This document shows positions 2,445-25,428 of a DNA stretch of 64,000 nt, piece by piece. Source of the DNA: Armatimonadota bacterium (lineage in GTDB: Bacteria > Sysuimicrobiota > Sysuimicrobiia > Sysuimicrobiales > Humicultoraceae); NCBI GenBank assembly GCA_031081585.1, contig JAVHLY010000006.1, forward strand, positions 1 to 64,000. The letters run 5' to 3'. Positions within the stretch are counted from its first letter, which is position 1. Every line of letters begins with the position of its first letter. The position numbers were made by a program, and so were the translations under genes. The notes beneath the pieces are model-generated. The model had not been told where the DNA came from. It searched no databases and was given only the letters and a program-made list of their open reading frames with translations.

Positions 2445-3566
2445 TCACCGCGGAAAACCCTCCCAGGGGCCGTTTGCCGCCAGTCGTTCCACCTCCGCCC
2501 GCGTCGCCCCGGCGATGCCCAGACGGCCCGCATGGAGCCCGACGGCCCGGTAGTCCACGCCGGTGACCACGGAGGCCAGGTGGATGAGCGCGTCCACCGT
2601 GGGCACCGACACGGCCGCGGCCTGCGCGAAGGCGGCCATGGGGACCAGGCCGTAGCCCACGTCCTCCTCGATGTACCGCCCCTCTAGGTTGGGCGGGGCC
2701 TTGATGTACCTGTTCGGGACGCTGTCGCGCAGCGCTTCGAAGACCGACCCGGCCTCCCAGGCGCGGCGCGACGTGAAGCCGGCCCGGTAGAAGAACTCCA
2801 GGAAGGAAGGCGTCTCGACACCGTAGGCCCGGGCGATCGCCTGGCGGTCCCGGTCCAGGGCCTCGATGGCCCGGGCCACCCCCGGGGTGGTCCCCTCGTA
2901 GTAGTAGTAGAACTGCCCGGCGGTGTGCTCGACCCACCCGGTGTTCAGCACCATGCCCGCCGGGTGGAGGACCGCGTTGAAGTTGGACAGCGAGGTGACC
3001 AGCACCGTGGGGACGGGCTGGAGCTGCGGGTAGTAGCGCGCCAGCCGCCGGCAGGCATCCTCCCTGAGGCGCGCGGGCAGGACGCCGGCGGCGACGGTGC
3101 GGGCGGGCCCGGTGATGTTCACCCTGGTCGGCGAGACCATGCGGCAGATGTAGGTTAGCGTGTTGAACTCGACGACGGGCACCGGAGGAGCACCGCGGTC
3201 GGCGAGCCGCCGGGCGACGTGCAGGGCGCTGCCGGTGTTGCTGGCGTTGAGGACCACCAGCTGGCCGGGCTCCAGGCAGTGCGCCAGCTGGTCGACGTAG
3301 AAGCTCTGACCCGGTGCGGGCACGGTGAGCATGACGACCTCCGCCCCGCGTACCGCCTCGGCCACCTCGGTGGTGATGCGCCCCACGGGTACGGTGGCCT
3401 CGCCCGGCGCTCCTGTGACCTCCACACCGCCCAGGCGCTGGAAGGGCAGGAGCCGCTCGGGACTCCGGTTGCACAGCGCCACGCGGAAGCCGCGCAGCCC
3501 CAGGTCCGCCGCTGCGGCCACGCCGCCGTTGCCCGCCCCCAGCACCGCCACGTCGATCCGCTCCAC
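2445..3566 (-). CDS. Opine dehydrogenase family NAD(P)-dependent oxidoreductase
   Basis: 373 residues, GTG start with GGAG 10 bases upstream, 5 bases after the enolase-superfamily gene. The N-terminal Rossmann domain carries GAGNGG at 10-15. The C-terminal NAD/NADP octopine/nopaline dehydrogenase domain has SLSNFNAVLHPAGMVLN at about 213-229, whose histidine matches the catalytic histidine region of the family. Known members reductively join an amino acid to a 2-oxoacid, or run in reverse to release the two. As last gene of the IclR-led run it probably works in the same catabolic route. The substrate pair is unknown; related fungal and bacterial ketopantoate reductase-like enzymes are less likely given the C-terminal pattern. 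Confidence 0.8.
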   Translation of the reverse strand: MERIDVAVLGAGNGGVAAAADLGLRGFRVALCNRSPERLLPFQRLGGVEVTGAPGEATVPVGRITTEVAEAVRGAEVVMLTVPAPGQSFYVDQLAHCLEPGQLVVLNASNTGSALHVARRLADRGAPPVPVVEFNTLTYICRMVSPTRVNITGPARTVAAGVLPARLREDACRRLARYYPQLQPVPTVLVTSLSNFNAVLHPAGMVLNTGWVEHTAGQFYYYYEGTTPGVARAIEALDRDRQAIARAYGVETPSFLEFFYRAGFTSRRAWEAGSVFEALRDSVPNRYIKAPPNLEGRYIEEDVGYGLVPMAAFAQAAAVSVPTVDALIHLASVVTGVDYRAVGLHAGRLGIAGATRAEVERLAANGPWEGFPR

Positions 3567-3571
3567 GGCGG

Positions 3572-4729
3572 CTAGCTCCAGGCCAGGCGGTAACGGCCCA
3601 GCTTGTCCGGGTCCACCGTAATCCCCAGCCCCGGCCCTGAGGGCACGCGCAGGGCGCCGGCACGGTATTCGAAGGGCGCGGCGAGGAGGTCATCGGTGTA
3701 GATCCGACCGGCCACCCGGGTCTGCTCCCGGCCGGCCACCGTGGTGATCGGGATGATGGCCGGCACCGTGACGGCCGCCGACGCTGCCCCCAGGTGCAGA
3801 TTGGCCGCGTTGCCGATGCCAAACTCCGCCGAGCCGCCCACGTCGGCCTCCATCCCCGCTGCCTCCAGGACGGCGGCCATCTGGCGCGCCCGGTACAGGC
3901 CGCCCGGTTTGGTCACGTAGAGCGAGACGTACCGCGCCGCACCGGCCTCCCGCAGGTGGAGGACGTCGCGCGGCGTCCAGGCGCTCTCGTCGGCCATGAT
4001 GGGGACACTGACCGCGCGGGCGACGGCCGCCAGTTCGTCGATCCCTTCCGTCGGCTGCTCGGCCAGGGCCAGCCCCCACCGCTCCAGGACCCGGAGGGTC
4101 CGGATGGCCACGGGGACGGTGTAGGCCTGGTTGGCGTCGAGCCGGATCTCCACGTCCGGTCCCACGGCTTCCCGCACCGCCTCCACGGTGCGGATGTCCC
4201 GTGCCGGATCGGGGCCGCCTTTGACCTTGATGTGCGCGATCCCCTCCCCGACGACCTGCCGCGCCTCCTCCACGGCCGCCTCCACGTCCATCAGGCCGAT
4301 GCTGTGCCCCACGGGGATCCACTCCCGCACCTTCCCGCCCAGGAGCTCGTAGACCGGGACGCCCAGGGCCCTCCCCTTCAGATCGTGCAGGGCGATGTCC
4401 AGGGCGGCCTTGGCGTAGGGGTGGCCCTTGATGACGCGGTCCATGACCTGATGGACCCGGGGCAGGTCGAAAACGTCCTCCTCCCGGAGGGCGGGCAGGA
4501 GGAGGTCCTGCAGCACGTGGCGCACCGTCTGCGGCGTCTCGCCGTAGTGGGTGCCGTAGGCGCCGCCCCAGTCTGGCAGGCAGGGCGTCTCTCCCCACCC
4601 CTCCAGGCCGTCCTCGCCACGTACCCGCACGACGACGTAGCGGCCGATGGGTCCCTGCAGGCCCGCCCACCGGTGCACCCGGCGGGTCGGCAGGCCGACC
4701 AGCATCACCTCGAGCTCCGCAATCCTCAT
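3572..4729 (-). CDS. Enolase superfamily enzyme (mandelate racemase/muconate lactonizing type)
   Basis: 385 residues. The chosen ATG follows GGGCGGAG and overlaps the upstream stop codon as ATGA; the longer open frame to 4990 is rejected because it covers the reductase gene. The capping N-terminal domain is followed by a TIM barrel with the full active-site set: KVK (168-170), metal ligands D198 (RLDANQAY), E224 (LAEQPTEG) and D247-E248 (MADES), and the second base K274 (YVTKPGG). The KxK motif and DANQAY place it in the MLE-like subgroup, which includes cycloisomerases, dipeptide epimerases, N-succinylamino-acid racemases and sugar acid dehydratases. Specificity cannot be read from sequence; the neighbouring opine dehydrogenase would fit an N-substituted amino acid racemase or a dehydratase. 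Confidence 0.85.
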   Translation of the reverse strand: MRIAELEVMLVGLPTRRVHRWAGLQGPIGRYVVVRVRGEDGLEGWGETPCLPDWGGAYGTHYGETPQTVRHVLQDLLLPALREEDVFDLPRVHQVMDRVIKGHPYAKAALDIALHDLKGRALGVPVYELLGGKVREWIPVGHSIGLMDVEAAVEEARQVVGEGIAHIKVKGGPDPARDIRTVEAVREAVGPDVEIRLDANQAYTVPVAIRTLRVLERWGLALAEQPTEGIDELAAVARAVSVPIMADESAWTPRDVLHLREAGAARYVSLYVTKPGGLYRARQMAAVLEAAGMEADVGGSAEFGIGNAANLHLGAASAAVTVPAIIPITTVAGREQTRVAGRIYTDDLLAAPFEYRAGALRVPSGPGLGITVDPDKLGRYRLAWS

Positions 4730-5616: not shown

Positions 5617-5888
5617 CGCTCCCCGCTCCGCACCCGCATTGCCTCTTCCGGGGTCGAGGCGATGACGGCGATGGGCGTCCCCACCGTCACCGTGTGGCCT
5701 TCGCGGACCAGGATGCGGGCCACCACGCCGGCACAGGGCGCGGGCAGCTCCACATTCGTCTTCTCGGTTTCCACAATGCAGAGGACGTCGCCTTCGGTCA
5801 CGGGCTCGTCCTCGTCCACCATCCACTCGACGATGCGCCCCTCCGCCATGGTCAGCCCCCACTTCGGCATGCGCACCGTCTCGACCAT
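5613..5888 (-). CDS. Free-standing lipoyl/biotinyl domain protein
   Basis: 91 residues, a single lipoyl domain. MPKWGLTMAEGRIVEW opens the domain and the modified lysine lies in VETEKTNVE (about 43-51), the lipoylation-type ETEK(A/T) turn rather than a biotin AMKM motif. There is no E1/E3-binding domain and no acyltransferase domain, so it is not a normal E2. It sits directly after E1 beta and probably carries acyl groups or reducing equivalents for that E1. Start is the ATG; a GTG three codons upstream is equally possible. A swinging-arm role is inferred. Confidence 0.82.
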   Translation of the reverse strand: MVETVRMPKWGLTMAEGRIVEWMVDEDEPVTEGDVLCIVETEKTNVELPAPCAGVVARILVREGHTVTVGTPIAVIASTPEEAMRVRSGER

Positions 5889-5898
5889 GTCCGGCACG

Positions 5899-12598: not shown

Positions 12599-13375
12599 TC
12601 AGGTCATCACCAACCCGCCGTCCACGTGGATGGCGTGGCCGGTGATGTAGGCCCCGTCCGGTCCGCACAGGAAGGCCACCACGCCGGCCACGTCCTCGGG
12701 CGTCCCCAGGCGCCCCAGCGGGATCTGTCCCGGCCGCTCCCGCAGGAACGTCCCTGGCGCCCGCCCGTCGCGCGCCGTGACCGCGGCGTCCACCTCTTCC
12801 AACATGCGGGTGTGAATGTTGCCCGGGCAGACGGCGTTCACCGTGATGCGATGCGGCGCCAGCTCGACCGCCAACGCCCGGGTCAGGCCCAGGAGCCCGG
12901 TCTTGGACGCCACGTAGGCCACGTCTTGGCCGAAGGCCGTCTTGCTGGAGATGGAGGCCATGTTGACGATGGTGCCCTGCCCGCGGGCGAGCATATCCGG
13001 GACCACCGCGCGTGCGCACAGCAGCGGACCCGTGAGGTTGACCGCCAGGCTCTGGTGCCAGTCCTCCAGGGGGAAGCCCAGCAGGGGCGTGCGGCGGTAG
13101 ACTCCGGCGTTATTGACCAGGATGTCGATGGGCCCCAGCGCCTCCCGGGCGTCGCGGCAGGCCCGGGCGATGCTCGCCTCGTCGCGCACATCGAGCCGGG
13201 TCGCGATGGCCCGCCCGCCGGCGCGGGTGATCTCCGCGGCCACGCCCGCGGCGCTGTCTTCCTCGATATCCGCCACGACCACGGCCCCCCCGTCCCGCGC
13301 CAGCCGCAGCGCGATCCCCCGGCCGATCCCCCGACCGGCTCCCGTCACCAGGGCGACCCGCCCCGCCAGCGTCAC
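12599..13375 (-). CDS. Short-chain dehydrogenase/reductase (classical SDR)
   Basis: 258 residues. The GTG start overlaps the IclR stop as GTGA and has GGAGGG at ideal spacing; an ATG 19 codons upstream inside iclR is less likely. The NAD(P) motif TGAGRGIG, structural NNAG, catalytic serine region MASISSK, YVASK (Tyr-x3-Lys) and PGNIHT are all present. The aspartate in VVADIEED at the end of the second strand favours NAD(H). It probably oxidises a sugar alcohol or related polyol in the IclR-governed pathway. Confidence 0.9.
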   Translation of the reverse strand: MTLAGRVALVTGAGRGIGRGIALRLARDGGAVVVADIEEDSAAGVAAEITRAGGRAIATRLDVRDEASIARACRDAREALGPIDILVNNAGVYRRTPLLGFPLEDWHQSLAVNLTGPLLCARAVVPDMLARGQGTIVNMASISSKTAFGQDVAYVASKTGLLGLTRALAVELAPHRITVNAVCPGNIHTRMLEEVDAAVTARDGRAPGTFLRERPGQIPLGRLGTPEDVAGVVAFLCGPDGAYITGHAIHVDGGLVMT

Positions 13376-14232
13376 CGACGCCCTCCGACCGGGCGCCGGC
13401 GGCCGGCCCCCCGACCGCTCCCTGTCCGCCACCGGTCCGCCGTCAGGTGGCGCCGCCCACCCGTCCGGCCGGCCGGGTGACCCAGCTCCTCAGAGAGGCG
13501 CGCCGCCGTTTCCACCACCACCCGGGCCAGCGGCGGGATCCGCCCGGACGGGATGTCGGCCGCGATCCCCGAGATCCCGATGGAGGCCACGACCTCGCCA
13601 CCCCTGCCCCGGACCGGCGCGGCGATGCAGCGGATGTTGCGGTGGAACTCCTCGTCGTCCACGGCGTAGCCCTGGCGGCGAACGACCGCCAGGTGCCGCT
13701 CCAGCGACGGCAGCGTCACGCGGGTCTTGGGTGTGAACTTGGTCAGTCGGGCGTCGGCCAGCACGGCGCGCAGCCTGTCCGGCGGCAGACCCGCCAGCAG
13801 GGCCTTGCCCACGGCGGTGCAGTGCGCGGGGGCGACGTGACCGATGCCGATGTCCACCTGGACGCGGGAGGGCCCCTTCTCCTGGCCGACGTAGACGGTC
13901 CACAGCGGGTTCTCTGGCGCCAGCACCGCCAGGTGGGCGCTCTGCCCGGTCCGCGTCACCAACGCGGCCAGGTACGGCCGCGCGCGCTGGGGGAGGTCCA
14001 TGCGGGAGAGCACCCGCGCCGACAGGGTCAGCAGGCCGGCGTCCAGGTCGTACCGGCGAGTCTGCGGGTCCTGGCGCACGTAGCCCCGCCGGCTCCAGGC
14101 CGCCAGGATACGGAAGACCGTGGCCTTGTCCAGGCGCAGGACGCGGGTCAGCTCGGACACCCCCAGCGGCCCCTCGCTGGCCACCAGCGCCTCGATGACC
14201 GCCAGCGCCCGCTCCAACGTCCGCGTGCGCAC
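13372..14232 (-). CDS. IclR-family transcriptional regulator
   Basis: 286 residues. An N-terminal winged helix-turn-helix (about 1-65: LERALAVIEALVASEGPLGVSEL, then ATVFRILAAWSRRGYV) is followed by the IclR effector-binding GAF-like domain with GHVAPAHCTAVGKALLA and the late GEVVASIGISG. The first gene of the leftward carbohydrate/dehydrogenase run, it is probably its effector-responsive, autoregulated switch. The start is uncertain: the GTG used here has AGGAGG almost touching it, and an in-frame TTG five codons later has better spacing. The C-terminal tail is unusually arginine-rich. Confidence 0.88.
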   Translation of the reverse strand: MRTRTLERALAVIEALVASEGPLGVSELTRVLRLDKATVFRILAAWSRRGYVRQDPQTRRYDLDAGLLTLSARVLSRMDLPQRARPYLAALVTRTGQSAHLAVLAPENPLWTVYVGQEKGPSRVQVDIGIGHVAPAHCTAVGKALLAGLPPDRLRAVLADARLTKFTPKTRVTLPSLERHLAVVRRQGYAVDDEEFHRNIRCIAAPVRGRGGEVVASIGISGIAADIPSGRIPPLARVVVETAARLSEELGHPAGRTGGRRHLTADRWRTGSGRGAGRRRPVGGRR

Positions 14233-14245
14233 CCCTCCTGGGTGG

Positions 14246-14274
14246 TCTGTTTTATTGAGCGCAACTCTGTTTCA
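14246..14274. promoter_or_regulatory. Candidate IclR operator: 9-bp direct repeat, two helical turns apart
   Basis: In the 161-base AT-richer gap in front of iclR, TCTGTTTTA (14246-14254) and TCTGTTTCA (14266-14274) are repeated 20 bases apart in the same orientation. The placement just upstream of the iclR start suits an autoregulatory site. Only placement and repetition support this. Confidence 0.35.
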
Positions 14275-14393
14275 CTTCTTCCCGAACAAATACCTCTTCG
14301 ACACCCGGGCGGGTCCCTTCCTCCTCCCGCGCCCCTACCCCCGCACGCCGGGACGGCGCGGCGGCTCCGACCTCTTCCGCCGTGGGCCGCGGC

Positions 14394-15743
14394 TCAGTAC
14401 GACCGCAGGACCCGACCCGCCGGCGGTCCGATGACCTCCCCGTCGCGGAAGACCACGCGCCCCCCCTTGATGGTCGTCGTCGGCCAGCCGCGCAGGCGCA
14501 TGCCATTGGCCGCGGTTTTGAACCGCGAGACCGTGGTCTGCGGGCTCACCACCCGCTCCCGGTCCATGTCGACCAGCACCAGGTCGGCGTCCTTGCCGAC
14601 GGCGATGGCCCCCTTGCGGTCGTCGATGTGGTAGAGGCGGGCGGGGGTGAGACAGGCCACCCGGACCAGGTCCTGCAGGGTGATCCGCCCCCGGTGCACG
14701 CCCTCCGAGAGGAGCAGGGGCAAGGCCACCTCGATCCCCGGCATGCCGGCGGTGGCCTGCCAGAGGTCGTCGGTCTCGTGCTTCTCACACGAGATGTGGT
14801 CGGTACCGACGGTGGCGATGGCCCCGGAGCGCACCCCCGCCCACAGCCGCTCGCCGTTGGTGCGGTCGCGCAACGGCGGGTTCATCTTGCCGATGGCGCC
14901 GATCCGCGGTCCCGCCTCTTCCGGAAAGACCGTGAGGAACTGCACCAGCGTCTCCAGGATCAAGGGGCGCTGGGTCCACCGCTGCGCCGCCTCGATGCCC
15001 TCGGCGGCCGCCAGGTGCAGGACGACCGCGCGGCAGCCGGTGAGCTCGCTGAGGTAGGCCATCGTGTGGATGTCCGCCACCTCGCAGAAGGCCGGTCGGG
15101 CGTCGGTCCACGCCTGCAGGTCCCGCCGGCCCGTGCGCTGGACGGCCGGCAGCGTGTAGCGGATGATCTCGACGTCTTCGCAGTGGAGGGCGCAGAGGGC
15201 GTCGATCTGCGCGCACTGCCGCATGGTCAGGTAGGCGTCACCGTCGTCCAGGGGTTCGATGTCCAGCTCCGCCACGGCCCGGACACGGTAGTCCAGGTGC
15301 AGCTTGTAACAGAGGACCCCGAACCGCTCCCGGTACTGGGGAATCTCGTCGATGTGGCGGCGGTTCTGGATCTGAAGGTGGAAGACGACGTCGCAGTGAG
15401 AGCGCGCGGCCACCACCTGCTCCCAGGCCGGATAGACTTCCAGGTACGACGCCTTGGCGCGGGCGTGGGGCATCATCACCGTCGTGCCGCCCGCCACGGC
15501 CGCGGCGCTGGTCTGCTCCACGTCCACCTCGAAGGGGTAGTGGACCCCGAGGTGGATGTGGGGCTCCACCCGGCCCGGCAGCAGCACCTGCCCGCGCCCC
15601 TCCAGGACCTCCTCAGCTGCAGGGCCGTCCCCCTCGTCGCCCATGGCCACGATGCGCCCTCCCCGCACGGCCACCCAGCCCCGGAAGGTCAGGTCGGGGG
15701 TCACCACGTGGCAGTCGCGGACCACCAGATCGACTCGCGCCAT
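14394..15743 (-). CDS. Hydantoinase/dihydropyrimidinase-family amidohydrolase
   Basis: 449 residues, ATG with GGAGGAGG 6 bases upstream. The cyclic amidohydrolase metal site is nearly complete: HIH at 62-64 (VEPHIHLG), the carboxylated lysine in CYKLH (K147), H187 in LHCED, a later histidine in VVLHLAA and the aspartate in VGTDH. The usual DxHxH is here PHIH. The family opens cyclic amides (hydantoins, dihydropyrimidines, allantoin). It closes the FadR-led half of the island, next to an isochorismatase-fold hydrolase able in principle to cut the ring-opened carbamoyl product. The natural ring is unknown; the gap to iclR is 161 bases. Confidence 0.85.
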   Translation of the reverse strand: MARVDLVVRDCHVVTPDLTFRGWVAVRGGRIVAMGDEGDGPAAEEVLEGRGQVLLPGRVEPHIHLGVHYPFEVDVEQTSAAAVAGGTTVMMPHARAKASYLEVYPAWEQVVAARSHCDVVFHLQIQNRRHIDEIPQYRERFGVLCYKLHLDYRVRAVAELDIEPLDDGDAYLTMRQCAQIDALCALHCEDVEIIRYTLPAVQRTGRRDLQAWTDARPAFCEVADIHTMAYLSELTGCRAVVLHLAAAEGIEAAQRWTQRPLILETLVQFLTVFPEEAGPRIGAIGKMNPPLRDRTNGERLWAGVRSGAIATVGTDHISCEKHETDDLWQATAGMPGIEVALPLLLSEGVHRGRITLQDLVRVACLTPARLYHIDDRKGAIAVGKDADLVLVDMDRERVVSPQTTVSRFKTAANGMRLRGWPTTTIKGGRVVFRDGEVIGPPAGRVLRSY

Positions 15744-15774
15744 CGCTGCCTCCTCCCGGACCCGTCCCCCCGCC

Positions 15775-16416
15775 TCAGGATCCCGGTGCGGGCGCGGGGG
15801 ACGCGGCCAGCATCTCCAGGACCTGGTCGGAGGTCACCACCAGACCGCAGTAGTGCGCCCAGACGGCCAGGGCCATCTCGTGCCAGTCGCGGCGGATGCC
15901 GCCGATGCAGTCCGCGACGATGAGGAGGTCGTAGTCGCGCATGTACGCCTCGCGGACGGAGGTGTCGATACAGGCGTTGGTGGTGGTCCCGGTGACCAGG
16001 AGCGTGCGCCGGCCGAGAATGCGCAGCAGCACCTCGAGGCGCGTCCCGTAGAAGACGCTGAACTTGTGCTTCTCGATGACGTGGCTGCGCCCGTCCAACA
16101 GCGGCTTGAGCTCGTCGGCGATCTCCGCATCCCACGTGCCGGGCTGGCAGGCGATCCGGGCCCGCTTCTGGGTATGGGGCTGGATGCGGTGCAGGGTGCG
16201 GGTGCGGTCCTCGGGCAGGTGGTGCTGCACGGTCCAGATGTCGGGGATCGCCCGGGCCTTGCAGGCCTCGATGAGGCGCCGCAACGGCGGGAGGATGGCC
16301 GAGAGCAGTGTGGTGTCCACGCCGCTCAGCCCCAGGGTGCCCTGGGGGTGCAGGAAGGCGTTCTGGGCGTCGATGACCAGCAGCGCCGTATCGTTTACAT
16401 CGAGGGTGTAGTCCAT
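15775..16416 (-). CDS. Isochorismatase-fold cysteine hydrolase (N-carbamoylsarcosine amidase-like)
   Basis: 213 residues, ATG with GGAGGAG upstream. The catalytic triad is visible: D16 in VIDAQNAF, K116 in VIEKHKFSVF and C149 in TGTTTNACIDTS, with the cis-peptide GTTTN turn. The TTTNACID wording is typical of the N-carbamoylsarcosine amidase/ureidoacrylate amidase branch rather than nicotinamidase. It overlaps the upstream deaminase-like gene by 22 bases. A likely job is hydrolysis of a carbamoyl or amide group released by the neighbouring hydantoinase, which is inference from context. Confidence 0.85.
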   Translation of the reverse strand: MDYTLDVNDTALLVIDAQNAFLHPQGTLGLSGVDTTLLSAILPPLRRLIEACKARAIPDIWTVQHHLPEDRTRTLHRIQPHTQKRARIACQPGTWDAEIADELKPLLDGRSHVIEKHKFSVFYGTRLEVLLRILGRRTLLVTGTTTNACIDTSVREAYMRDYDLLIVADCIGGIRRDWHEMALAVWAHYCGLVVTSDQVLEMLAASPAPAPGS

Positions 16417-17657
16417 ACCGGTGCCTCCTCCACGCCGCCGTCCGCCACGGAGAGGGGGGCCACCCGACCTCCCCGCACCACCAGCGCCCGGCGAGGCAAG
16501 CTGACCACCGGACCGTCGGGCGGCCGGCAGTCCAGGACCACCAGATCGGCCCGCCCGCCCGGCCGCACGCCGTAGTCGCCCAGGGCCAACACCTCGGCAG
16601 CGGCGGTGGTGACCATCGTCGTCAGTGCCGCGCGCTCGGCCTCTGTGGTGAGCTGCGCCGCAATGCCCAGGACGAAGGCCGCCAGCAGCGGATCACCGTT
16701 CCCATACGGCAAGAACGCATCCTGCACGTTGTCCGAACCGCAGACCACCTGCACGCCAGCGGCCAGCAGCTCGCGCACCGGGGCGATGCCCCGTGGGCCC
16801 GAGGGGTCGCCCCGGCCCTGCAGGAAGAGGTTGGTCAGCGGCAGGACCGCCACGGTGATCCGCGCTGTCGCCAGACCCTCGATCAGGGAGGCGCGCTCGG
16901 TGGCGTCGACGCAGGCCAAGGCGGAGCAGTGGCCGGCCACGACGCGACCGGCATAGCCATGGGCCAGGGTCGCCGGGATGAGCGCCGCCAGGCCAGGGCA
17001 GCGCGGCTCCGTGTGTTCGTCCACATGGAGGTCCACCCCCAGCCCGCGAGCCTCCGCCAGCTCGAAGAGGACCTTCAGGACCGGCCCCGGATCGTCGTCG
17101 ATGCCGATGCTGGCGCCGAGACTGTCGCATCCCAGGCGGGCGGCCTCGACCAGCAATTCCCGGGTGGGGCGTTCCGGGAGCCCGTGCCGCGAGGCAAAGG
17201 CGACGACCTGCACACGCAGCCGATCACCGTACTCCTCGCGCAACGCCAGCGCCGCCTCGACGCCGAGCAGCCCGACGGCCGGATCCACATTCACGTGGGC
17301 GCGTAACGCCCCCACGCCCCAAGCCTGGACGGTATCCAGCAATCGGCGGCCCCGGGTCATCAACCCCGGGCGGTCCCTGACCTGGCGCAGAGCCGCCGTG
17401 GCGGTGACAGCGCCGGCCAGGTCGGCAGCCGGCCCGGTGAGGTCCAGCGAGAAAGCCTTGTCCAGGTGCAGGTGCGGTTCGACCAGCGCCGGCAGCACCC
17501 ACCGCTGCGCGCCGGACCACTCCCCACGCCCCCGGCCCTCCAGCCGTGGCGCCACCTCCGCGATCCGCTCCCCCACCATGGCGATGTCGCAGGGCATCGG
17601 CCACCCGGGGACGGTGACGTCCCGCAGGATCAGGTCGTAGGCCGCTGCGGAGCTCAC
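16395..17657 (-). CDS. Cytosine deaminase-like metal-dependent amidohydrolase
   Basis: 420 residues from a GTG overlapping the upstream stop as GTGA, with GGAG 8 bases before it; a second GTG lies three codons upstream. Motifs follow the cytosine/creatinine deaminase (CodA) layout: HLHLDKAF (metal HxH plus Asp-Lys), LRAHVNVD, DLHVDEH, VAGHCSAL and VCGSDNVQDAF. The enzyme should remove an amino or imino group from a ring, or hydrolyse a ring amide. Its neighbours (hydantoinase and carbamoyl amidase) match the logic of a deaminase-first route. Substrate is not identifiable. Confidence 0.83.
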   Translation of the reverse strand: MSSAAAYDLILRDVTVPGWPMPCDIAMVGERIAEVAPRLEGRGRGEWSGAQRWVLPALVEPHLHLDKAFSLDLTGPAADLAGAVTATAALRQVRDRPGLMTRGRRLLDTVQAWGVGALRAHVNVDPAVGLLGVEAALALREEYGDRLRVQVVAFASRHGLPERPTRELLVEAARLGCDSLGASIGIDDDPGPVLKVLFELAEARGLGVDLHVDEHTEPRCPGLAALIPATLAHGYAGRVVAGHCSALACVDATERASLIEGLATARITVAVLPLTNLFLQGRGDPSGPRGIAPVRELLAAGVQVVCGSDNVQDAFLPYGNGDPLLAAFVLGIAAQLTTEAERAALTTMVTTAAAEVLALGDYGVRPGGRADLVVLDCRPPDGPVVSLPRRALVVRGGRVAPLSVADGGVEEAPVWTTPSM

Positions 17658-18571
17658 GGCGGCCACTCCGTGGCCAGGATGCGCGTGATGCCCAGCCACT
17701 GGCTGTACCCCACCGTCCGGGGGGCACGCCCGCCCAGGCCCCTCGCCCACACCACTGGCACCCCCAGCTCGCCGGCGGCAGCCAGGTCGACGGCCCCCGG
17801 CGGCCCGCTGAGGTCGATCAACAGGCACTGCGGGTCCAGGCGGGTCAGCACCTCGCGGGTGAAGAGGCGCGCCGGGGCCGTGTTGAAGATCACGCACATG
17901 TCGCGCGCACGCTCGGCGAGCGCCTCCAGGGGAACCGCGGCGCACCCCATCGCCCAGGCCCGCGCCAGCTGTGCGGGGTTCCTGGCGGCCACCGTCACGC
18001 GTGCGCCGAGCCCGCGCAGCGTAGCCGCCAGCACGGGACCGATCCTGCCGAAGCCCACGACCATGCAGGGGTGTCCGTGCAGGGTGACTTCCGTGTGCTC
18101 GATGGCCACCCGGATGGCCCCCTCGGCAATGGCGGGGGCGCGCAGCAACATCAGGTCCTCCTCCTGCTCGTACTCGCGGAGGCGCAGGTGCAGCGCCTGC
18201 GCAGCCTCGGCCATCTGCGGGCTGGCACGGCCGGTGATGAGGACGGCCCCGGGACGCACGCCCCGCAGGGTGGCCGTGTTCACCACCAGCGGGTCGGGGG
18301 CGTGGGGGGCGAAGAGACTCCCGTCCGCCGCGGGCAGGGGGACCGGGCAGATCACCACGTCGGCGTCCCGTACGGCTTCCGCCACCGTCGAGGCGGGAGT
18401 TCCGGGCACGTCGCCGGTGACAGGCAGCCCGCAGGTCCGGACGACGGCCCCGGCCCGCGCAGCCTGGCGGGCGATCTCCACCTCGCGGCCGTCCCCGCCC
18501 AGCACGGCCACGGTGCGGCCGCGCAGGTCCAGATCGGGTACCGCCCCCACGACCACGGCGTCCCCGTTCAC
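17654..18571 (-). CDS. Dipicolinate synthase subunit A (DpaA/SpoVFA)-like dehydrogenase
   Basis: 305 residues, GTG start overlapping the peptidase stop (GTGA) with GGGGGA upstream. The N-terminus has the DpaA hallmark VAVLGGDGREVEIARQ (GGDxRE at 25-30). The second half is a Rossmann domain with VVGFGRIG (173-178) preceded by IAEGAIRVAIEHTEVTLHG, close to the SpoVFA wording around EGTIMLAIQHT. In spore formers DpaA with DpaB makes dipicolinic acid. Here no dpaB, dapA or sporulation gene is near, and the gene sits inside a cyclic-amide catabolic operon. It is probably an NAD(P)-dependent oxidoreductase recruited for another cyclic imine-like or 2-oxoacid-derived substrate. Confidence 0.78.
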   Translation of the reverse strand: MNGDAVVVGAVPDLDLRGRTVAVLGGDGREVEIARQAARAGAVVRTCGLPVTGDVPGTPASTVAEAVRDADVVICPVPLPAADGSLFAPHAPDPLVVNTATLRGVRPGAVLITGRASPQMAEAAQALHLRLREYEQEEDLMLLRAPAIAEGAIRVAIEHTEVTLHGHPCMVVGFGRIGPVLAATLRGLGARVTVAARNPAQLARAWAMGCAAVPLEALAERARDMCVIFNTAPARLFTREVLTRLDPQCLLIDLSGPPGAVDLAAAGELGVPVVWARGLGGRAPRTVGYSQWLGITRILATEWPP

Positions 18572-19692
18572 GGCCGGTCCCCCGGCACCATCTGCCACAG
18601 CCGGCCCACGTCGTACTGGCAGGTCGCCACCTCGCACCCCGTTGCGGTCACGATCACGGTCTCCTCCAGCTGCATGCCCAGGGCCGGGAGGGTGACCAGC
18701 GGCTCGATGGCCAGCACCATTCCCTCCTCCAGGGTCGTGTCGGCGTAGCGGTTGAGGTAAGGCTCCTCGTGCAGGGTCAGGCCGAGGCCGTGGCCCAGGA
18801 AGTGCAGCGTCGGCAGCCTCCAGGCGTCCATCTTCTCGATGTACGCTCGGAAGATGGCGCGCGTGCTGGCGCCCGGGCGGATCAGGTCCAGGGCCAGGTG
18901 GCGGCACTCCACCAGCCGCCCCCAGAGCGCCTCCTGCTCCGGGGTCGGAGGGCCCACCACGGCCGTCCGGGCCACGTCGCACACGTAGTGCTGGACCGTC
19001 CCGATGACGTCGATGCGCACCACCTCCCCCGGCCGAATCTCCCGGCGGGTGGGCGGCCCGTTGAGCATGGGGGTACGCTCGCCCGCGGTCACGCTGAGCA
19101 TGGTCAGGTTCTCTCCACCGGCCGCGCTGAAGGCGTCGGCGATGCGCCGGCCCAGGTCGGCCTCGGTCATCCCCGGCCACCACGTCTGCAGCCCGGCATG
19201 GGCCGCCTGCTCCGCCACCTGCGCGGCACGGCGCAACCGGGCCAGCTCCTCGGGGGTCTTGACCATCCGCAGGGCGGCCAGCACCTCGTCGACAGGGACG
19301 AGGTGGGCCACGCCGTCCAGCGCCTGCTCCAGGAGGCGGTAGTCGGCGTAGTTCAGGTAGGCTGCCTCGACGCCCACCGCCCCGCGCAGGCCCCGGGCCC
19401 GAATCGCCTCCGCCAGCACCAGCACCGGCCGCTGGGTGAACTCGTTGTAGGCGGTCACCCGGGCCACGTCCGCGTGGGCCCGGGCGAAGCCCTCCTCGAC
19501 GTCCACGACGAACAGCTCCGCCTCGCCTTCGCCGGGCACCAGGGCGATGGCGTGACGGTGGCGGACCGTCCGCTGGGAGGGGATCAGGGCGCCGGTGGTC
19601 CAGCAGACGTTTTCGGGGGCCACGATCACCATGGCCGCCAGCCCCAGGCGCGCCATGGCCTCGCGCTGGCGCCGGCGGATCTCCTCAGGCAT
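18568..19692 (-). CDS. M24-family (Xaa-Pro peptidase/creatinase fold) hydrolase
   Basis: 374 residues, ATG with GGAGGGG at 8 bases. An N-terminal creatinase-like domain (about 1-150) precedes the pita-bread domain. The five metal ligands of metallopeptidases are kept: Asp in VVRIDVIG, Asp in YVCDVAR, His in FLGHGLG, Glu in LAIEPLV and Glu in QLEETVIV. True creatinases have lost these ligands, so this is more likely a metal-dependent dipeptidase or amidase. Its place in the ureide-like operon suggests it cuts a pathway intermediate rather than acting in general protein turnover. Confidence 0.85.
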   Translation of the reverse strand: MPEEIRRRQREAMARLGLAAMVIVAPENVCWTTGALIPSQRTVRHRHAIALVPGEGEAELFVVDVEEGFARAHADVARVTAYNEFTQRPVLVLAEAIRARGLRGAVGVEAAYLNYADYRLLEQALDGVAHLVPVDEVLAALRMVKTPEELARLRRAAQVAEQAAHAGLQTWWPGMTEADLGRRIADAFSAAGGENLTMLSVTAGERTPMLNGPPTRREIRPGEVVRIDVIGTVQHYVCDVARTAVVGPPTPEQEALWGRLVECRHLALDLIRPGASTRAIFRAYIEKMDAWRLPTLHFLGHGLGLTLHEEPYLNRYADTTLEEGMVLAIEPLVTLPALGMQLEETVIVTATGCEVATCQYDVGRLWQMVPGDRP

Positions 19693-19748
19693 CGCCCATC
19701 CCCTCCGCCTCCCCGCCTCCCGGCCGGCCGGTAGCCAGCGCGCCCCGG

Positions 19749-21182
19749 TCAGTCATAGGCCGTGCTAACCGTGGGGGTGACCCCCGGGCGGATGCCGGCG
19801 CGTTCCACCACCCGACGGGCGTGCTCCCGCGCCAGGGCGTAGACCTCGTGCTCGTCCACCGTGAGGACCCGGCGGTCGCGCATGACCACCCGGCCGTCGA
19901 TGATCACGGTGTGGACGGAGCTCACGCTGGCCGAATAGACCAGGGTCTGGATGGGGTCGCCGTAGGGGACCCAGTCGCACGCTTCGAGGGTGAAGAGCAC
20001 CAGGTCGGCCCGCTTGCCCACCTCCACGGAGCCGATCTCATCATCCCACAGCAGGGCGCGGGCTCCGTCGATGGTGGCCATGCGTAGCGCCTGCCGCGCG
20101 CCGATGAGCGTGGGATCCATCCGGGCGTCCTTGAAGAGGCCGGCCGCCAGGTACATCTGGCGCATCATGTCCAGCGAGCCCGCCGCCGAGGGACCATCGC
20201 AGCCCAGGGCCACGGTGATCCCGGCCTGGAGCATCTCCGGGTACTTCCCGATGCGGGTGGCGCCCTTGGCCAGCTTGAGCGCGGTGCCCGGACAGAAGGC
20301 CACCTTGGTGCCGGCCTCGGCCAGGTAGGCGATCTCCTCGCTCCGCACGGCCACCACGTGGGCCAGAACCAGGTTGTCCTGCAGGGCGCCCCACTCGTGC
20401 AGCAGCGTGACCGGCCACTTCCCGGTCCGGCGCTCGCTGGCCTGCGCCTCCTCGATGGACGACGCGATGTGGTAGGTCGTCCCCACGCCGAGGCGTCGAG
20501 CCAGCGCCGGTGCTCCCGCATGGAGCTCCGGGGAGCAGGGCTCCTTCCCCTCGATGTTCACCCACACCCGGATGCGCCCCCCGCCGCTTCCGTGGTACTG
20601 CCGCACGCAGCGCTCCAGCTCGCCCAGCGCGGCCTCGGCACTGGGGAAGAAGTGGCGCTCGACCATCTCGGGAGTCCAGTGGGGCGGCAGCCGCTCAGGC
20701 AGGCGGTCGGCGGCGTGGCGCCCGGTCACCGCCCGCACGCCCACCCGCTCCAGGGCCCGTACGACGGCCCCCACGTCGCTCTGTGCCCCCATGTCCAGGG
20801 CGCAGGTGGTTCCGGTCTTGATCATCTCGATGCCGGCCAGCAGGGTGGCGACGTACTCGTCCTCGGCCCGCATGGCCGCGTAGACCGGCTTGGCCCAGTT
20901 GAAAACCCACGGGCGGGTCGACAGGGTGTCGACGAAGACGCCCCGGACCAGCTGCTCGGAGAAGTGGAGGTGGGCGTCGACCAGTCCGGGCATCACCAGG
21001 CGCCCGCGCCCGGGGATCACCTCGTCGAACGGCGTCTCGCCGTAGCGACGGTCGATCTCCTCCGTGGGGCCCAGGGCGGCGATCCGGCCGTCCTCCACCA
21101 CGATGGAGTGCGCGGTGAGGACGCGGTCCTGGGGATCGACGGTGAGGACCACGTCGGCGTCGCGGATCAGCAGGCGTGCCAT
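19749..21182 (-). CDS. Amidohydrolase of the TrzN/ATZ/guanine deaminase-like family
   Basis: 477 residues from the ATG opening MARLLIRDADVV; an in-frame ATG six codons upstream overlaps the VOC stop as ATGA and is an alternative. The subtype III amidohydrolase metal site is visible: VDAHLHFSEQ (HxH), the GTTCALDMG strand, a YHIAS stretch, LAHVVAVRSEEI and GCDGPSAAG (Asp). The C-terminal composite domain ends with IIDGRVVMRDRRV. Members hydrolyse amino or chloro groups of nitrogen heterocycles. The second deaminase-type enzyme in this operon, it supports an N-rich ring substrate. Confidence 0.83.
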   Translation of the reverse strand: MARLLIRDADVVLTVDPQDRVLTAHSIVVEDGRIAALGPTEEIDRRYGETPFDEVIPGRGRLVMPGLVDAHLHFSEQLVRGVFVDTLSTRPWVFNWAKPVYAAMRAEDEYVATLLAGIEMIKTGTTCALDMGAQSDVGAVVRALERVGVRAVTGRHAADRLPERLPPHWTPEMVERHFFPSAEAALGELERCVRQYHGSGGGRIRVWVNIEGKEPCSPELHAGAPALARRLGVGTTYHIASSIEEAQASERRTGKWPVTLLHEWGALQDNLVLAHVVAVRSEEIAYLAEAGTKVAFCPGTALKLAKGATRIGKYPEMLQAGITVALGCDGPSAAGSLDMMRQMYLAAGLFKDARMDPTLIGARQALRMATIDGARALLWDDEIGSVEVGKRADLVLFTLEACDWVPYGDPIQTLVYSASVSSVHTVIIDGRVVMRDRRVLTVDEHEVYALAREHARRVVERAGIRPGVTPTVSTAYD

Positions 21183-21196
21183 GGCTATGCCCGGCC

Positions 21197-21589
21197 TCAT
21201 GCGGGGCCTTCGTCCCGCCACCGATCGTGCAGCTCGATGCGCGTCCCGTCGGGGTCGACGACGTAGATCGAGGTCCCGTACGCGGCGGTGGTCACCGGCC
21301 CCTCGGAGGGCAGCCCGGCCCGGAGGAGTCGCGCCCGCAGCGCGTCGAGGTCCCGGACGCGGAAGGCGATGTGGTCCACCAACCCCGGCCCGGCGGGGAT
21401 GCCGGCCGGGCGGGCCGTCAGGCCGAGCCCCTGCTGCAGGACGACGAGGGGCCGGCCGTCGCGCAGCGTCCCGCGGTCCCGCACGGTGAAGCCCAGCACG
21501 TCGACGAAGAACCGCTCCGCCGCAGCCAGGTCCCCGACCTGCAGCAGCACGTGGCTGAGCCCCTCGGGACGAGAGGGCGCGGCCACCAC
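21197..21589 (-). CDS. VOC (glyoxalase superfamily) protein
   Basis: 130 residues; GTG start immediately after the tautomerase stop, with GGGAG 8 bases upstream inside that gene. The VOC fold is shown by LSHVLLQVGDLAAAERFFVDVLGF, the central GLVDHIAFRVRDLDALRARL and the closing IYVVDPDGTRIELHDRW, with His and Glu at the metal positions. Such proteins are isomerases, epimerases or ring-cleaving dioxygenases. Adjacent genes on both sides belong to the same operon, so it probably handles a pathway intermediate. Confidence 0.8.
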   Translation of the reverse strand: MVAAPSRPEGLSHVLLQVGDLAAAERFFVDVLGFTVRDRGTLRDGRPLVVLQQGLGLTARPAGIPAGPGLVDHIAFRVRDLDALRARLLRAGLPSEGPVTTAAYGTSIYVVDPDGTRIELHDRWRDEGPA

Positions 21590-21781
21590 CTACCGCTCCC
21601 GGTCCGACCCCAGGACCCCCGCCCGGGCCCAGTTGTGCCTGGGGACCTCGTGGATGATCACGTGGAGGTGATCCGCGCTGGCGCCAGCGTGGCGGACCAT
21701 TGCCTCGGTGATCGCCGCCACGAGGCGGCGCTTCTGTTCCAGCGTCCGTCCTTCCCACATCTCCACCGTCACGACGGGCAC
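21590..21781 (-). CDS. 4-oxalocrotonate tautomerase-like protein
   Basis: 63 residues, the normal size for this hexameric family. After removal of the initiating residue (GTG start) the chain would begin with proline (PVVTVEM), the catalytic base of the superfamily. The helix LEQKRRLVAAITEAMVRH and the strand HVIIHEVPRHNW follow the usual layout. GGGGGTG lies upstream. It overlaps the ATPase gene by 13 bases. It probably interconverts enol and keto forms of an unsaturated acid made in the operon's pathway. Confidence 0.85.
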   Translation of the reverse strand: MPVVTVEMWEGRTLEQKRRLVAAITEAMVRHAGASADHLHVIIHEVPRHNWARAGVLGSDRER

Positions 21782-22632
21782 GGCGTCACCCCCTTCTCGT
21801 CAGTGTGCTCGCGCACTCGGCCGGCCCCCCGGCCGCGGCCGGCCTCACCGGGCGGGCCCAGGAGGCCCTGGCTGCGGAACAGGTCGCGGATCCTCCGCAC
21901 GGCGCTGTGGAAGGCGTCCTCCTCCCGCAGTGCGGGGGTCCGCGGCCGCCCCAGCGGGACCTCGACGGACTGGACCACGCGCCCGGGGCGCGGCGACATC
22001 ACCACCACCCGGTCGGCCAGCAGGACCGCCTCCTCGATGGCATGGGTAACGAAGACCACGGTGTTCTGCCGGTCCTGCCACAACCCGAGGAGGTACGTCC
22101 CCAGTTCTTCGCGCGTAAAGGCGTCCAGCGCGGCAAAGGGTTCGTCCATGAGCAGGAGGGGCGGGTCGTGGATGAGGGCCCGGCAGAGGGCCACCCGCTG
22201 GCGCATGCCGCCGGAGAGCTCGTGCGGGTACCGGTGCTCGAACCCGGCCAGGCCCACGCGCTGCAGGAGCTGGCGGGCACGGTCGACGGCGGCGGCGCGG
22301 GAGAGGTTCTTGATCTCCGCGGGCAGGAGGACGTTGCCCAGGACGGTGCGCCACTCCAGCAAGGCGTCCCGCTGGAACACGACGCCCACGTCCGTGTAGG
22401 GGCGCGTCCGCACCTGGCCGTCGACGGCGATGGTCCCGCCGGTGGGAGGGATGAGCCCGGCGATCATCAGGAGCAACGTGCTCTTGCCGCACCCGCTGGG
22501 CCCGACCAACGCGACGAACTCTCCCGGCCGGACCGCCAGGCTCACCCCCTCGACGGCCAGGATATCCGCCCCGCGGGCGCGGTACCGCTTGGACACCCGC
22601 TCCAGGGCGATGCCGACGGCCTGTTGTGTCAT
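21769..22632 (-). CDS. NitT/TauT-family ABC transporter ATP-binding protein
   Basis: 287 residues. Walker A GPSGCGKST, Q-loop VVFQRDALLEW, signature LSGGMRQRVALCRAL, Walker B LLLMDEPFAALD and the switch histidine in VFVTHAIEEA are all intact. The DALLEW Q-loop and short length match SsuB/TauB/nitrate-type ATPases. It serves the permease (22740-23555) and binding protein (23573-24583) just upstream. No strong ribosome site precedes the ATG, and a 107-base gap separates it from the permease gene. Confidence 0.93.
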   Translation of the reverse strand: MTQQAVGIALERVSKRYRARGADILAVEGVSLAVRPGEFVALVGPSGCGKSTLLLMIAGLIPPTGGTIAVDGQVRTRPYTDVGVVFQRDALLEWRTVLGNVLLPAEIKNLSRAAAVDRARQLLQRVGLAGFEHRYPHELSGGMRQRVALCRALIHDPPLLLMDEPFAALDAFTREELGTYLLGLWQDRQNTVVFVTHAIEEAVLLADRVVVMSPRPGRVVQSVEVPLGRPRTPALREEDAFHSAVRRIRDLFRSQGLLGPPGEAGRGRGAGRVREHTDEKGVTPCPS

Positions 22633-22739
22633 GCCCAGTCCGGGACGCGTCTGGCCACGGGCGGCTACCCCTCACGCCCTCACGAACCGGTTGGTGCAGG
22701 AGTCTCCAGCGGCAGATACCGAGCCACCCTTCACCCCCA

Positions 22740-23555
22740 TCACAGCGTCTCCCGGGCAGCCTCCAGCTGCTCCTCCCCCGGCCGCCAGCGGACCACCAGC
22801 CGTTCCAACACGCCGACGGCGTAGAAGAGCACGATGCCCAACGCCGACAGGACCGCGATGGTCGCAAAGAGCATCACCGTATCCAGATTGCTGTTGGCCT
22901 GGAGCTGGATGTACCCCAGCCCTTCGTTGGCGGCGATGTACTCCCCCACGATGGCGCCGACGACCGCGAGCGTAATGGCCACCTTCAGGCCCCCGAAGAT
23001 GCTTGGCAGGGCCCGGGGGAGCCTCACCTTGAGGAAAACCTGCAGGGGGGTCGCCCCCAGGGACTGCGCCAGGTAGATGGTCTCGGGTTCCACCGAGCGC
23101 ATCCCGATAACGGTGTTCACGACGATGGGGAAGAAGGCGATGAGGAAGGCGACCGCCACTTTGGAGAGCAGCCCGAACCCGAACCAGAGTACGAACAGCG
23201 GGGCCAGGGCGGTCTTGGGAATCGTCTGGAAAGCCACGATCACCGTGTAGCTCACCCGTTCGAAGACGCGCGAGTACACGATGCCGATGGCCACGGGGAT
23301 GCCGACCAGGGTACTGGCGAGGAAGCCCAGCAGGATTTCCTGTGTCGTGGGCAGGGCATGGCGCAGGAAGAGGTCGTGGCGACTGACCAGCATCCCCGCC
23401 ACCGCGGACGGCCGCGGGAGGACGAAGGCCGGCACCTGCAGGGCCCGGACACCCGCTTCCCACAGGAGCACACCGGCCAGCAGGACCCCCAGGGACGGAC
23501 CGTGGGTCTGGAGCAGCCGCCCCGTGCTCTTCCCGACCCCGAGCCCGCGAGCCAC
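22740..23555 (-). CDS. NitT/TauT-family ABC transporter permease
   Basis: 271 residues from a GTG placed 17 bases after the binding-protein stop. Longer frames run back into that gene and are rejected. Five or six membrane spans are seen, starting with LGVLLAGVLLWEAGVRAL. The coupling loop is LAQSLGATPLQVFLKVRLPRALPSIFGG (about 171-198), with the typical IPVAIGI and VGAIVGEYI helices of SsuC-like permeases. It forms a homodimer with the ATPase downstream. Start choice is moderately certain because the ribosome site is weak. Confidence 0.9.
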   Translation of the reverse strand: MARGLGVGKSTGRLLQTHGPSLGVLLAGVLLWEAGVRALQVPAFVLPRPSAVAGMLVSRHDLFLRHALPTTQEILLGFLASTLVGIPVAIGIVYSRVFERVSYTVIVAFQTIPKTALAPLFVLWFGFGLLSKVAVAFLIAFFPIVVNTVIGMRSVEPETIYLAQSLGATPLQVFLKVRLPRALPSIFGGLKVAITLAVVGAIVGEYIAANEGLGYIQLQANSNLDTVMLFATIAVLSALGIVLFYAVGVLERLVVRWRPGEEQLEAARETL

Positions 23556-23572
23556 TGGTTGCCCCGCGGATC

Positions 23573-24583
23573 TCAGTCGCCGACGAAGCGGTTCGTGAAG
23601 TACTCCGTGGGCGCCTTCACCTTCTGCAGCAGCCCCCCGCGCGCCAGGATCTCCACGGTCTTCCGCCACTCGTCCATGGAGTTCCAGCCCAGCGGCCGGC
23701 CTGCCACAGCGCGTGTCCGCACCAGCTCCAAGGTGAAGCTGATCTGCAGCGGTGTCGTCTCACGATCGAGGGCGTCCGGGAAGAGCCTCACCAGGATGTC
23801 GGAGGCCTCCACGGGGTGGCGCAGCGTGTACTCAAAGCCCTCGTTGGTCCCGGCCACCACGGCCCTGACTGTCTGCGGGTTCTGCTCCGCAAATCGCAGG
23901 CTGGTAACCAGTCCGTGGCCCAGGATGTTAAACCCGTGGTCGGCGACCCAGAGGAGGTTCAGGCGGCGCCCCGCCCGGACCTCCACGACCGGGACCTCGT
24001 TGGTGTAGAACGCCGACAGGACATCCAGGCGGCCCTGGAGGAACTGGGCCAGCCGGGCGCTGGGATCCAGGTTCACCAGCCGGACCTTGGACTCGTCGAT
24101 GCCGTTAGCCCGGGCAAATGCCGGCCAGATCCGCTGGAAGGTATCCGCGGGCGAGGTGCCCACGCTTTTGCCCTCCAGGTCCCGCGGGGAGGCCAGGGGG
24201 CCAAACGACGCCAGGACCATGGGGCTCTTGCGAATGTAATTGGCCACCATGACGATCGGCATGTCCTGGGACACGCCCTGAGCCGTCTCGATGGCCCCCA
24301 CGTAGGCGAACTCGTCGTTGCCATTGGCCAGCGCGGTCAGCGTGGGGCCGGCACCCGCCCCCTCGAGCACCCGCACGGAGACCCCGCGCTTGGTGTAGAA
24401 GCCCTTCTGCACAGCGACGAAGAGGGGCGCGAACTCCCCCTTGATCTTCCAGCTCAGGCGGATCGTCACCGTCGGTCGCGTCTGCGCCACGCTCGCGGCC
24501 GGGACGAACATGCCGCTCAGGAGGACCGTCACGACCGCCGCCAACCAAACCTTCCCCCACCGTGCCCTTCCTCGCCCTCGCAT
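23573..24583 (-). CDS. NitT/TauT-family ABC transporter substrate-binding protein
   Basis: 336 residues with a signal peptide (KVWLAAVVTVLLSGMFVPAASVAQ). The mature part opens VTIRLSWKIKGEFAPLFVAVQKGFYTKRGVSV, the SsuA/THI5-like pattern shared by binding proteins for sulfonates, nitrate, pyrimidine precursors and hydantoin or riboflavin-like compounds. LEGKSVGTSPADTF marks the second lobe hinge. The W-K-I-K-GEFAPLF wording is close to the pyrimidine/thiamine-precursor branch, consistent with a nitrogen ring compound as ligand. It lies 29 bases after the FadR-type regulator gene. Confidence 0.9.
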   Translation of the reverse strand: MRGRGRARWGKVWLAAVVTVLLSGMFVPAASVAQTRPTVTIRLSWKIKGEFAPLFVAVQKGFYTKRGVSVRVLEGAGAGPTLTALANGNDEFAYVGAIETAQGVSQDMPIVMVANYIRKSPMVLASFGPLASPRDLEGKSVGTSPADTFQRIWPAFARANGIDESKVRLVNLDPSARLAQFLQGRLDVLSAFYTNEVPVVEVRAGRRLNLLWVADHGFNILGHGLVTSLRFAEQNPQTVRAVVAGTNEGFEYTLRHPVEASDILVRLFPDALDRETTPLQISFTLELVRTRAVAGRPLGWNSMDEWRKTVEILARGGLLQKVKAPTEYFTNRFVGD

Positions 24584-24612: not shown

Positions 24613-25428
24613 CTACCCCGACAGAGAGTCTCGGCCTCCGTCCGCCTCCCCGGTCATCGGCCCCTCGGTCCCCACGGACCGGTCCGCCGGCCCGTCTCCG
24701 CTGGCGCGCAGGGCCCGCACCGACGCCATCGTGGACTGCAGGTGTCTGGACATGCGCTCGGCCGCCTCCGTTGCGTTGCCGGCCTTGATCGCCTCGAGGA
24801 TCAGACGGTGCTGCTCCACCGACTGCAGGGCGCGACCCGGGAGTGCCATCACCGCCCGCCGGTCGGCGAAGACGTAGTTGATCGAGCGCGAGAGGTAGAC
24901 CAGGTAGGGGTTGCCGCCCAGGTCGGCGATGAGGCCGTGAAAGGCCAGGTCGATCTGCTCCAGGGCGACGATGTCCCGGCTGCGGGCGGCGACGGCCATC
25001 TCGGCCACGTTGGCCTCCAGTGCCGAGAGGTGCCGCCCCGCGTCCCCGGAGGCGTTGGCCACAGCCCGGGCGGCCAGGGCCGCCGCCTTCGTCTCCAGGA
25101 CCTCTCTGACCTCAAGCAGAGCCAGGACATCGTCGCGGTGCGACTCCAGCCAGGGCAACCAGGCGGCCGGATCGCCGGCTCCGTCAGCGGTCGGTGACGC
25201 GACAACTGTCCCCCGCCCCTGGCGGACGTCGACCAGCCCGAGGGCCGACAGGATCTGGATCGCCTCCCGAACGGTGGATTGGCTCACGCCAAATCGGAGC
25301 GCCAGTTCCCTGACGGAAGGCAAGTGGGCCCCCGGACCCAGGCGGCCTTGGTGAATCAGCTCGCGGATCTGCTCGACCACCTGCTGCGCGGTGGTCTGCA
25401 GACGCACCGGGCGAAAGTCAACACTCAT
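24613..25428 (-). CDS. FadR/GntR-family (FCD domain) transcriptional regulator
   Basis: 271 residues. A GntR winged helix-turn-helix (about 10-75: VVEQIRELIHQGRLGPGAHLPSVRELALRFGVSQSTVREAI) precedes an FCD effector domain. Its metal-site residues appear in DLAFHGLIADLGGNPYL, EQHRLILEAI and MSRHLQ. First gene of the uptake and hydrolase operon, it is probably a repressor released by a carboxylate-type intermediate. A near-perfect FadR/PdhR-type operator overlaps its promoter, suggesting autoregulation. The last 30 residues form a disordered, glycine- and serine-rich tail. Confidence 0.92.
   Translation of the reverse strand: MSVDFRPVRLQTTAQQVVEQIRELIHQGRLGPGAHLPSVRELALRFGVSQSTVREAIQILSALGLVDVRQGRGTVVASPTADGAGDPAAWLPWLESHRDDVLALLEVREVLETKAAALAARAVANASGDAGRHLSALEANVAEMAVAARSRDIVALEQIDLAFHGLIADLGGNPYLVYLSRSINYVFADRRAVMALPGRALQSVEQHRLILEAIKAGNATEAAERMSRHLQSTMASVRALRASGDGPADRSVGTEGPMTGEADGGRDSLSG

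Follow-up and report, generated by a model that had tools for sequence, protein, structure and literature searches.

A DpaA-like oxidoreductase gene with no dpaB, in a putatively catabolic gene cluster recurring in two phyla

The gene and its neighbours in the window

Within the 64-kb stretch of DNA analysed here (the window), an open reading frame occupying exactly 17654-18571 of the minus strand begins with GTG and encodes a full-length chain of 305 amino acids whose relatives, by domain model and solved structure alike, are dipicolinate synthase A proteins. It lies among genes for an importer and for several hydrolases, and the features relevant to what follows, all on the minus strand, are:

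2445..3566, minus strand: opine-dehydrogenase-like oxidoreductase (PF02317, 137 bits; PDB 1bg6, 2e-54)
3572..4729, minus strand: enolase-superfamily (muconate-cycloisomerase-like) enzyme, adjoining the opine-dehydrogenase-like gene (PF13378/PF02746; TIGR02534, 244 bits)
13372..14232, minus strand: IclR-type regulator, beyond the downstream end of the cluster (174 bits with the BhcR model, where the cut-off is 350)
14394..15743, minus strand: hydantoinase/dihydropyrimidinase-like amidohydrolase (PDB 1gkp, hydantoinase, 2e-52)
15775..16416, minus strand: isochorismatase-like cysteine hydrolase, a relative of biuret and ureidoacrylate hydrolases (PF00857; PDB 6xjm, biuret hydrolase, 5e-19; RutB, 1e-17)
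16395..17657, minus strand: cytosine-deaminase/AtzC-like amidohydrolase (PDB 2qt3, N-isopropylammelide amidohydrolase, 4e-37)
17654..18571, minus strand: DpaA-like NAD(P)-dependent oxidoreductase (PF16924, PRK08306, TIGR02853, PDB 2rir)
18568..19692, minus strand: M24 (prolidase/creatinase-fold) hydrolase (PF00557, 150 bits)
19749..21182, minus strand: AtzA/deaminase-type amidohydrolase (PDB 4v1x, atrazine chlorohydrolase, 3e-54)
21197..21589, minus strand: VOC (glyoxalase-fold) protein (PF00903)
21590..21781, minus strand: 4-oxalocrotonate-type tautomerase, 63 amino acids (PF01361, 73 bits)
21769..22632, minus strand: NitT/TauT-type ABC importer ATPase (56% identical to the Aminobacter cluster ATPase)
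22740..23669, minus strand: ABC importer permease (45-48% to the Aminobacter and Shinella cluster permeases), the true start of which may be further in, e.g., at 23555
23573..24583, minus strand: NMT1/THI5-like substrate-binding protein (PF09084, 134 bits)
24613..25428, minus strand: GntR/FCD regulator, upstream of the importer (PF00392, PF07729)

The earlier note on this DNA had described a full-length DpaA-like chain with particular motifs, translationally coupled to an M24 hydrolase gene and to a deaminase-type gene, and both descriptions hold. The protein matches the Pfam DpaA_N model (PF16924) with 71 bits and an E value of 1.2e-19, where the cut-off is 29.2 bits, and in phmmer searches of PDB it aligns end to end, far beyond chance, with 2rir (2.1e-35) and 3d4o (4.7e-30), the dipicolinate synthase A chains that are its nearest solved structures. 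GGDGRE is found at residues 25-30 and EGAIRVAIEHT at 150-160. The M24 gene and the start of the DpaA-like gene overlap by 4 bp, and at the other end the cytosine-deaminase-like gene starts with the GTG at 17657 and overlaps the DpaA-like stop by the same distance. A Foldseek search with the predicted structure again placed 3d4o and 2rir on top (E about 1e-20), with transhydrogenase domain I and alanine dehydrogenase after them. The AlphaFold model was built from four sequences, and its two domains are not reliably oriented, which keeps the TM-score against DpaA down at about 0.4; as a prediction it confirms the fold family, not the domain arrangement.

The importer, tautomerase, VOC, AtzA-type, M24, isochorismatase-like, hydantoinase-like and cytosine-deaminase-like genes all lie inside 14394-24583. 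The pair at 2445-4729, for the opine-dehydrogenase-like and enolase-superfamily enzymes, is 13-14 kb downstream of the DpaA-like gene, and with its finding all 13 families of the cluster considered below are present in the window; these two genes and the tautomerase gene are absent from the earlier note. No cluster hydrolase has an equivalog-level match, all being below the NCBIfam equivalog cut-offs. Directly upstream of the pair, at 4726-7937, are a RibD-C-type pyrimidine-reductase-like gene, a small lipoyl-domain-like ORF and genes for 2-oxoacid dehydrogenase E1 beta and alpha, which are possibly further pathway steps. Downstream of the opine-dehydrogenase-like gene, at 421-1779, is a TrpB-like PLP enzyme gene (TIGR01415, 662 bits, above cut-off).

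Separation from the DpaA of spore formers

Could this be the DpaA of a spore former, with its dpaB at a distance? The host genome, of 2.88 Mb in 66 contigs and 96% complete, was searched with models for which Bacillus subtilis served as positive control. The dpaB model (TIGR02852) had no match anywhere in it, SpoIVA was absent, and the Spo0A model retrieved response regulators only, all below cut-off. By these markers, in a genome of that completeness, the host does not qualify as an endospore former, and a sporulation DpaA working with a distant dpaB is ruled out. The earlier note had held that its reading would fall if the genome contained dpaB and a sporulation gene set with this as the only dpaA copy; instead, a different contig carries a further DpaA-like gene (G000:C35:7198-8100), whose product is 45% identical to the window copy and 63% to that of a Hyphomicrobiales MAG (L015). 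Its neighbours are NitT/TauT-type ABC genes and genes for an M24 protein, an isochorismatase-like hydrolase, an enolase-superfamily enzyme and a GntR regulator, and the locus is of another type than that of the window, again one that different phyla share. It lies directly before the NitT/TauT-type ATPase and permease genes; aminotransferase-like and DapE/ArgE-like genes are there too. DpaA_N proteins were found in two of the 43 genomes of the host phylum, the host itself and G038, whose locus is present letter for letter within GenBank JAJPJJ010000080 (Centralia_MAG_45). The dpaB search was likewise negative in G038 and in genomes G386 and G387.

Homology to DpaA/SpoVFA (TIGR02853, PRK08306; 2rir, 3d4o) extends over the whole length, comprising DpaA_N, the C-terminal Rossmann domain, GGDxR and AEGAI. 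However, the window protein differs in lacking dpaB and sporulation genes, in its scores, in its place in the tree and in its catabolic cluster. It scores 199.7 bits with TIGR02853 and 225.9 with PRK08306, against equivalog cut-offs of 319.65 and 261, whereas the positive controls, sporulation-type proteins of a Symbiobacteriaceae MAG and of genome G368 (L016 and L025; 349/327 and 384/402 bits), pass both. DpaA_N matches are found in 214 of 300 genomes of one sporulating phylum. With duplicate loci excluded, dpaB adjoins 30 of 32 sporulation-type dpaA genes and none of the 14 catabolic-type ones. Two sporulation-type loci of family f311 (L080 and L102) have no recognised dpaB alongside.

A phylogeny of DpaA homologues with and without dpaB had been proposed in the earlier note, and in the maximum-likelihood tree those without it form a group of their own: the 32 sporulation-type sequences are split from the other 18 with support of 95/90, though the 14 catabolic-type sequences alone are one side of a weakly supported branch (75/65). 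Mapped on the tree, the two type labels require one change, as against about 15 when shuffled. Taken as unrooted, the tree separates the two types and does not give the order in which they arose.

Kept in both types are G26, D27, R29, E150, G151, the GxGxxG glycines at 173, 175 and 178, and R197. From these residues we infer that cofactor binding is kept, and R197, following the second strand, makes NADP(H) the probable cofactor. By contrast, W275, R277 and W292 of the catabolic type are L, P and A in the sporulation type, and R144 of the main catabolic group is there N; the substrate pocket would thus seem to be changed, and the differing C-terminal positions may line it. Four Hyphomicrobiales genomes (L072-L075) encode DpaA-like proteins of 372-430 amino acids, counted from the longest possible starts, that have neither GGD nor GxGxxG and keep the catabolic-type W-A-R and C-terminal W; judged by these residues they are degenerate or repurposed relatives.

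The cluster in other genomes and on plasmids

The DpaA-like gene is not a lone oddity of its host genome, for it belongs to a conserved cluster in which about 13 gene families take part (the three-gene ABC importer, tautomerase, VOC, AtzA-type, M24, enolase-superfamily, opine-dehydrogenase-like, DpaA-like, cytosine-deaminase-like, isochorismatase-like and hydantoinase-like). The cluster is found again in one relative from the host's own phylum and on Aminobacter, Shinella and Phyllobacterium plasmids. In locus L014 the order is SBP-Perm-ATP-Taut-VOC-AtzA-M24-MLE-OctDH-DpaA-Isoch-Hyd-CytD. Its proteins are 66-84% identical to those of the window for most genes (hydantoinase-like 84%, AtzA-type 81%, M24 72%), the values for the enolase-superfamily, CytD and opine-dehydrogenase-like proteins being 53%, 40% and 39%. 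The closest annotated relatives of the DpaA-like protein, found by tblastn against plasmids, are 43-45% identical to it and come from ten Aminobacter records, three of Shinella and one of Phyllobacterium. Of the other window proteins, the tautomerase is 67% identical to its Aminobacter cluster counterpart, the AtzA-type amidohydrolase 53-54% to those of Aminobacter and Shinella plasmids, and the hydantoinase-like and M24 hydrolases 37% and 36% to those of Aminobacter.

The plasmid neighbourhoods and the Hyphomicrobiales genome loci have the same families as the window, the cytosine-deaminase-like and GntR genes being in most of them, and in the retrieved plasmid neighbourhoods there is no dpaB. 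The proteins annotated there as 'Dipicolinate synthase subunit DpsA', an automatic RefSeq name, are accordingly true relatives, 44-45% identical, with the same cluster and the same lack of dpaB. Their clusters differ from that of the window in three respects. First, their opine-dehydrogenase-like gene is directly adjacent: at nine of nine junctions checked in other clusters it has 4 bp in common with the DpaA-like gene, an arrangement from which the window departs, its own such gene being 14 kb downstream and not directly upstream. Second, in alphaproteobacterial plasmid clusters the VOC and isochorismatase-like proteins are one fused protein (L020, 15117-16106), and this links two genes that are separate in the window. 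Third, there are extra genes, for RidA and a CobW-type GTPase and, in several, for DadA and malate synthase; PntAB transhydrogenase genes flank several of the clusters. An L020 gene at 14234-14917, called 'resolvase' (227 amino acids), had no Pfam or NCBIfam match at the thresholds used, and its name looks wrong.

Close homologues are sparse. They were found in five of 398 sampled Hyphomicrobiales genomes, where all but nine of the lower-scoring matches are partial, mostly to the Rossmann domain. Among 399 sampled Pseudomonadota the DpaA_N model retrieved G387 alone, which was the centre of the search, and one false match. Rejected as relatives were L017 and L018, which match in the C-terminal domain region only, and G1146/L107, a hydroxyisobutyrate-dehydrogenase-like protein. 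One cluster in two phyla, so patchily distributed, indicates spread by horizontal transfer. Plasmid pAA03 of A. aminovorans, which PLSDB types as conjugative, has its cluster flanked on either side by a copy of one TniQ-TniB-transposase set (L021, 2137-5492 and 20444-23799). A truncated amidohydrolase gene is beside one of these copies, and another plasmid of that species, pAA01, carries a further copy of the cluster. Literature searches found no paper on the cluster.

Possible role, alternatives and significance

One part of the earlier note's proposal, a DpaA-type protein outside sporulation and inside a catabolic operon, is borne out by a catabolic context conserved between phyla and by the dpaB-less group in the tree. 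What, then, does the protein do? We lean towards an oxidoreductase of DpaA fold that would need no DpaB, use NADP(H) and catalyse one step in a horizontally transferred catabolism of a small nitrogen-rich cyclic compound. The broader proposition is that, in Hyphomicrobiales and a MAG-rich phylum, the DpaA family was recruited without DpaB as a stand-alone enzyme, paired with an opine-dehydrogenase-like one, for an undescribed pathway borne on plasmids and transposons by which a natural product or pollutant with an N-heterocycle would be degraded; this we rate at even chances. We take the protein as a divergent member of a known family of enzymes, its pathway being apparently undescribed.

The cluster probably breaks down a nitrogen-containing ring compound. 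That compound would enter through the NitT/TauT-type importer; the amidohydrolases together with the isochorismatase-like and M24 hydrolases would take off amino groups and open rings; the tautomerase, VOC and enolase-superfamily enzymes would rearrange unsaturated intermediates; and NAD(P)-linked redox steps would fall to the opine-dehydrogenase-like enzyme and the DpaA-like one. Members of the RidA family act on enamine or imine intermediates, and RidA in the plasmid clusters is a hint toward such chemistry, while malate synthase in several of them is a hint that would fit glyoxylate as end product. For the DpaA-like step the likeliest site would be the carbon of a C=N bond or of an enamine, by analogy with the proposal for dihydrodipicolinate. 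The presumed substrate of dipicolinate synthase itself is HTPA once dehydrated (PMC9024752). That the window protein has the same chemistry as DpaA is assumed from the fold, and the dehydrogenation of a cyclic imine or enamine suggested in the earlier note is a candidate among the several reactions that a Rossmann oxidoreductase might catalyse.

In s-triazine and pyrimidine-type catabolism, deamination, ring opening and the hydrolysis of carbamoyl groups are the work of the same superfamilies (AtzA, AtzC, biuret hydrolase, RutB, hydantoinase), but the window matches to them are all distant and sub-equivalog, and those pathways are not known to have a DpaA-like or opine-dehydrogenase-like enzyme. 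Opine dehydrogenase proper, N-(1-D-carboxylethyl)-L-norvaline dehydrogenase (1bg6), provides the fold of the partner gene's product, not of the DpaA-like protein. As sources of a substrate, the breakdown routes of creatinine/hydantoin, ectoine, triazines and cyclic dipeptides were weighed and set aside as each accounts for some of the hydrolases only, and since none explains the DpaA-like and opine-dehydrogenase-like pair no substrate is claimed; that the genes keep their order argues strongly that they share a function and weakly for a particular substrate.

Might the step instead run in the reductive direction, as an NADPH-dependent imine or enamine reduction preceding hydrolytic ring opening, with the opine-dehydrogenase-like enzyme taking the resulting secondary amine? 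R197, in suggesting NADP(H), and the flanking PntAB genes would suit this, as would the hydantoinase/dihydropyrimidinase relatives, which act on ring-reduced substrates. Direction, however, is not readable from sequence, and the oxidative and reductive readings of the step overlap; the reductive one is plausible though clearly the less favoured. Far less probable is a true subunit A of dipicolinate synthase, retained to supply dipicolinate or some related pyridine dicarboxylate, e.g., as metal ligand, with another flavoprotein replacing DpaB. Full-length homology and the CobW-type GTPase of the plasmid clusters would be in keeping with it, and there is precedent for the replacement: in some spore formers without dpaAB, dipicolinate is made by EtfA (PMC3533761), and therefore DpaA partners are replaceable. 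Against it are scores below both NCBIfam equivalog cut-offs, which true DpaA of other lineages passes, the lack of dpaB in the host genome, a cluster of importer plus hydrolases, and the altered sporulation-type positions. Least probable of all is a neutral passenger or a non-enzymatic or regulatory derivative, for while L072-L075 are evidence that degenerate forms exist, the window gene is of a kind kept in two phyla, is coupled by 4-bp overlap, has intact cofactor motifs and has a second paralogue in a similar setting.

The presence of DpaA is commonly read as a sign of sporulation. RefSeq nevertheless gives the name 'dipicolinate synthase' to genes of bacteria where no dpaB adjoins, a misleading annotation. 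What the cluster suggests is a catabolic pathway, as yet uncharacterised, moving on plasmids, and since Aminobacter, Shinella and Phyllobacterium are culturable that pathway is testable. A DpaA working without DpaB could, further, help to settle which half-reaction DpaA performs in the synthesis of spore dipicolinate.
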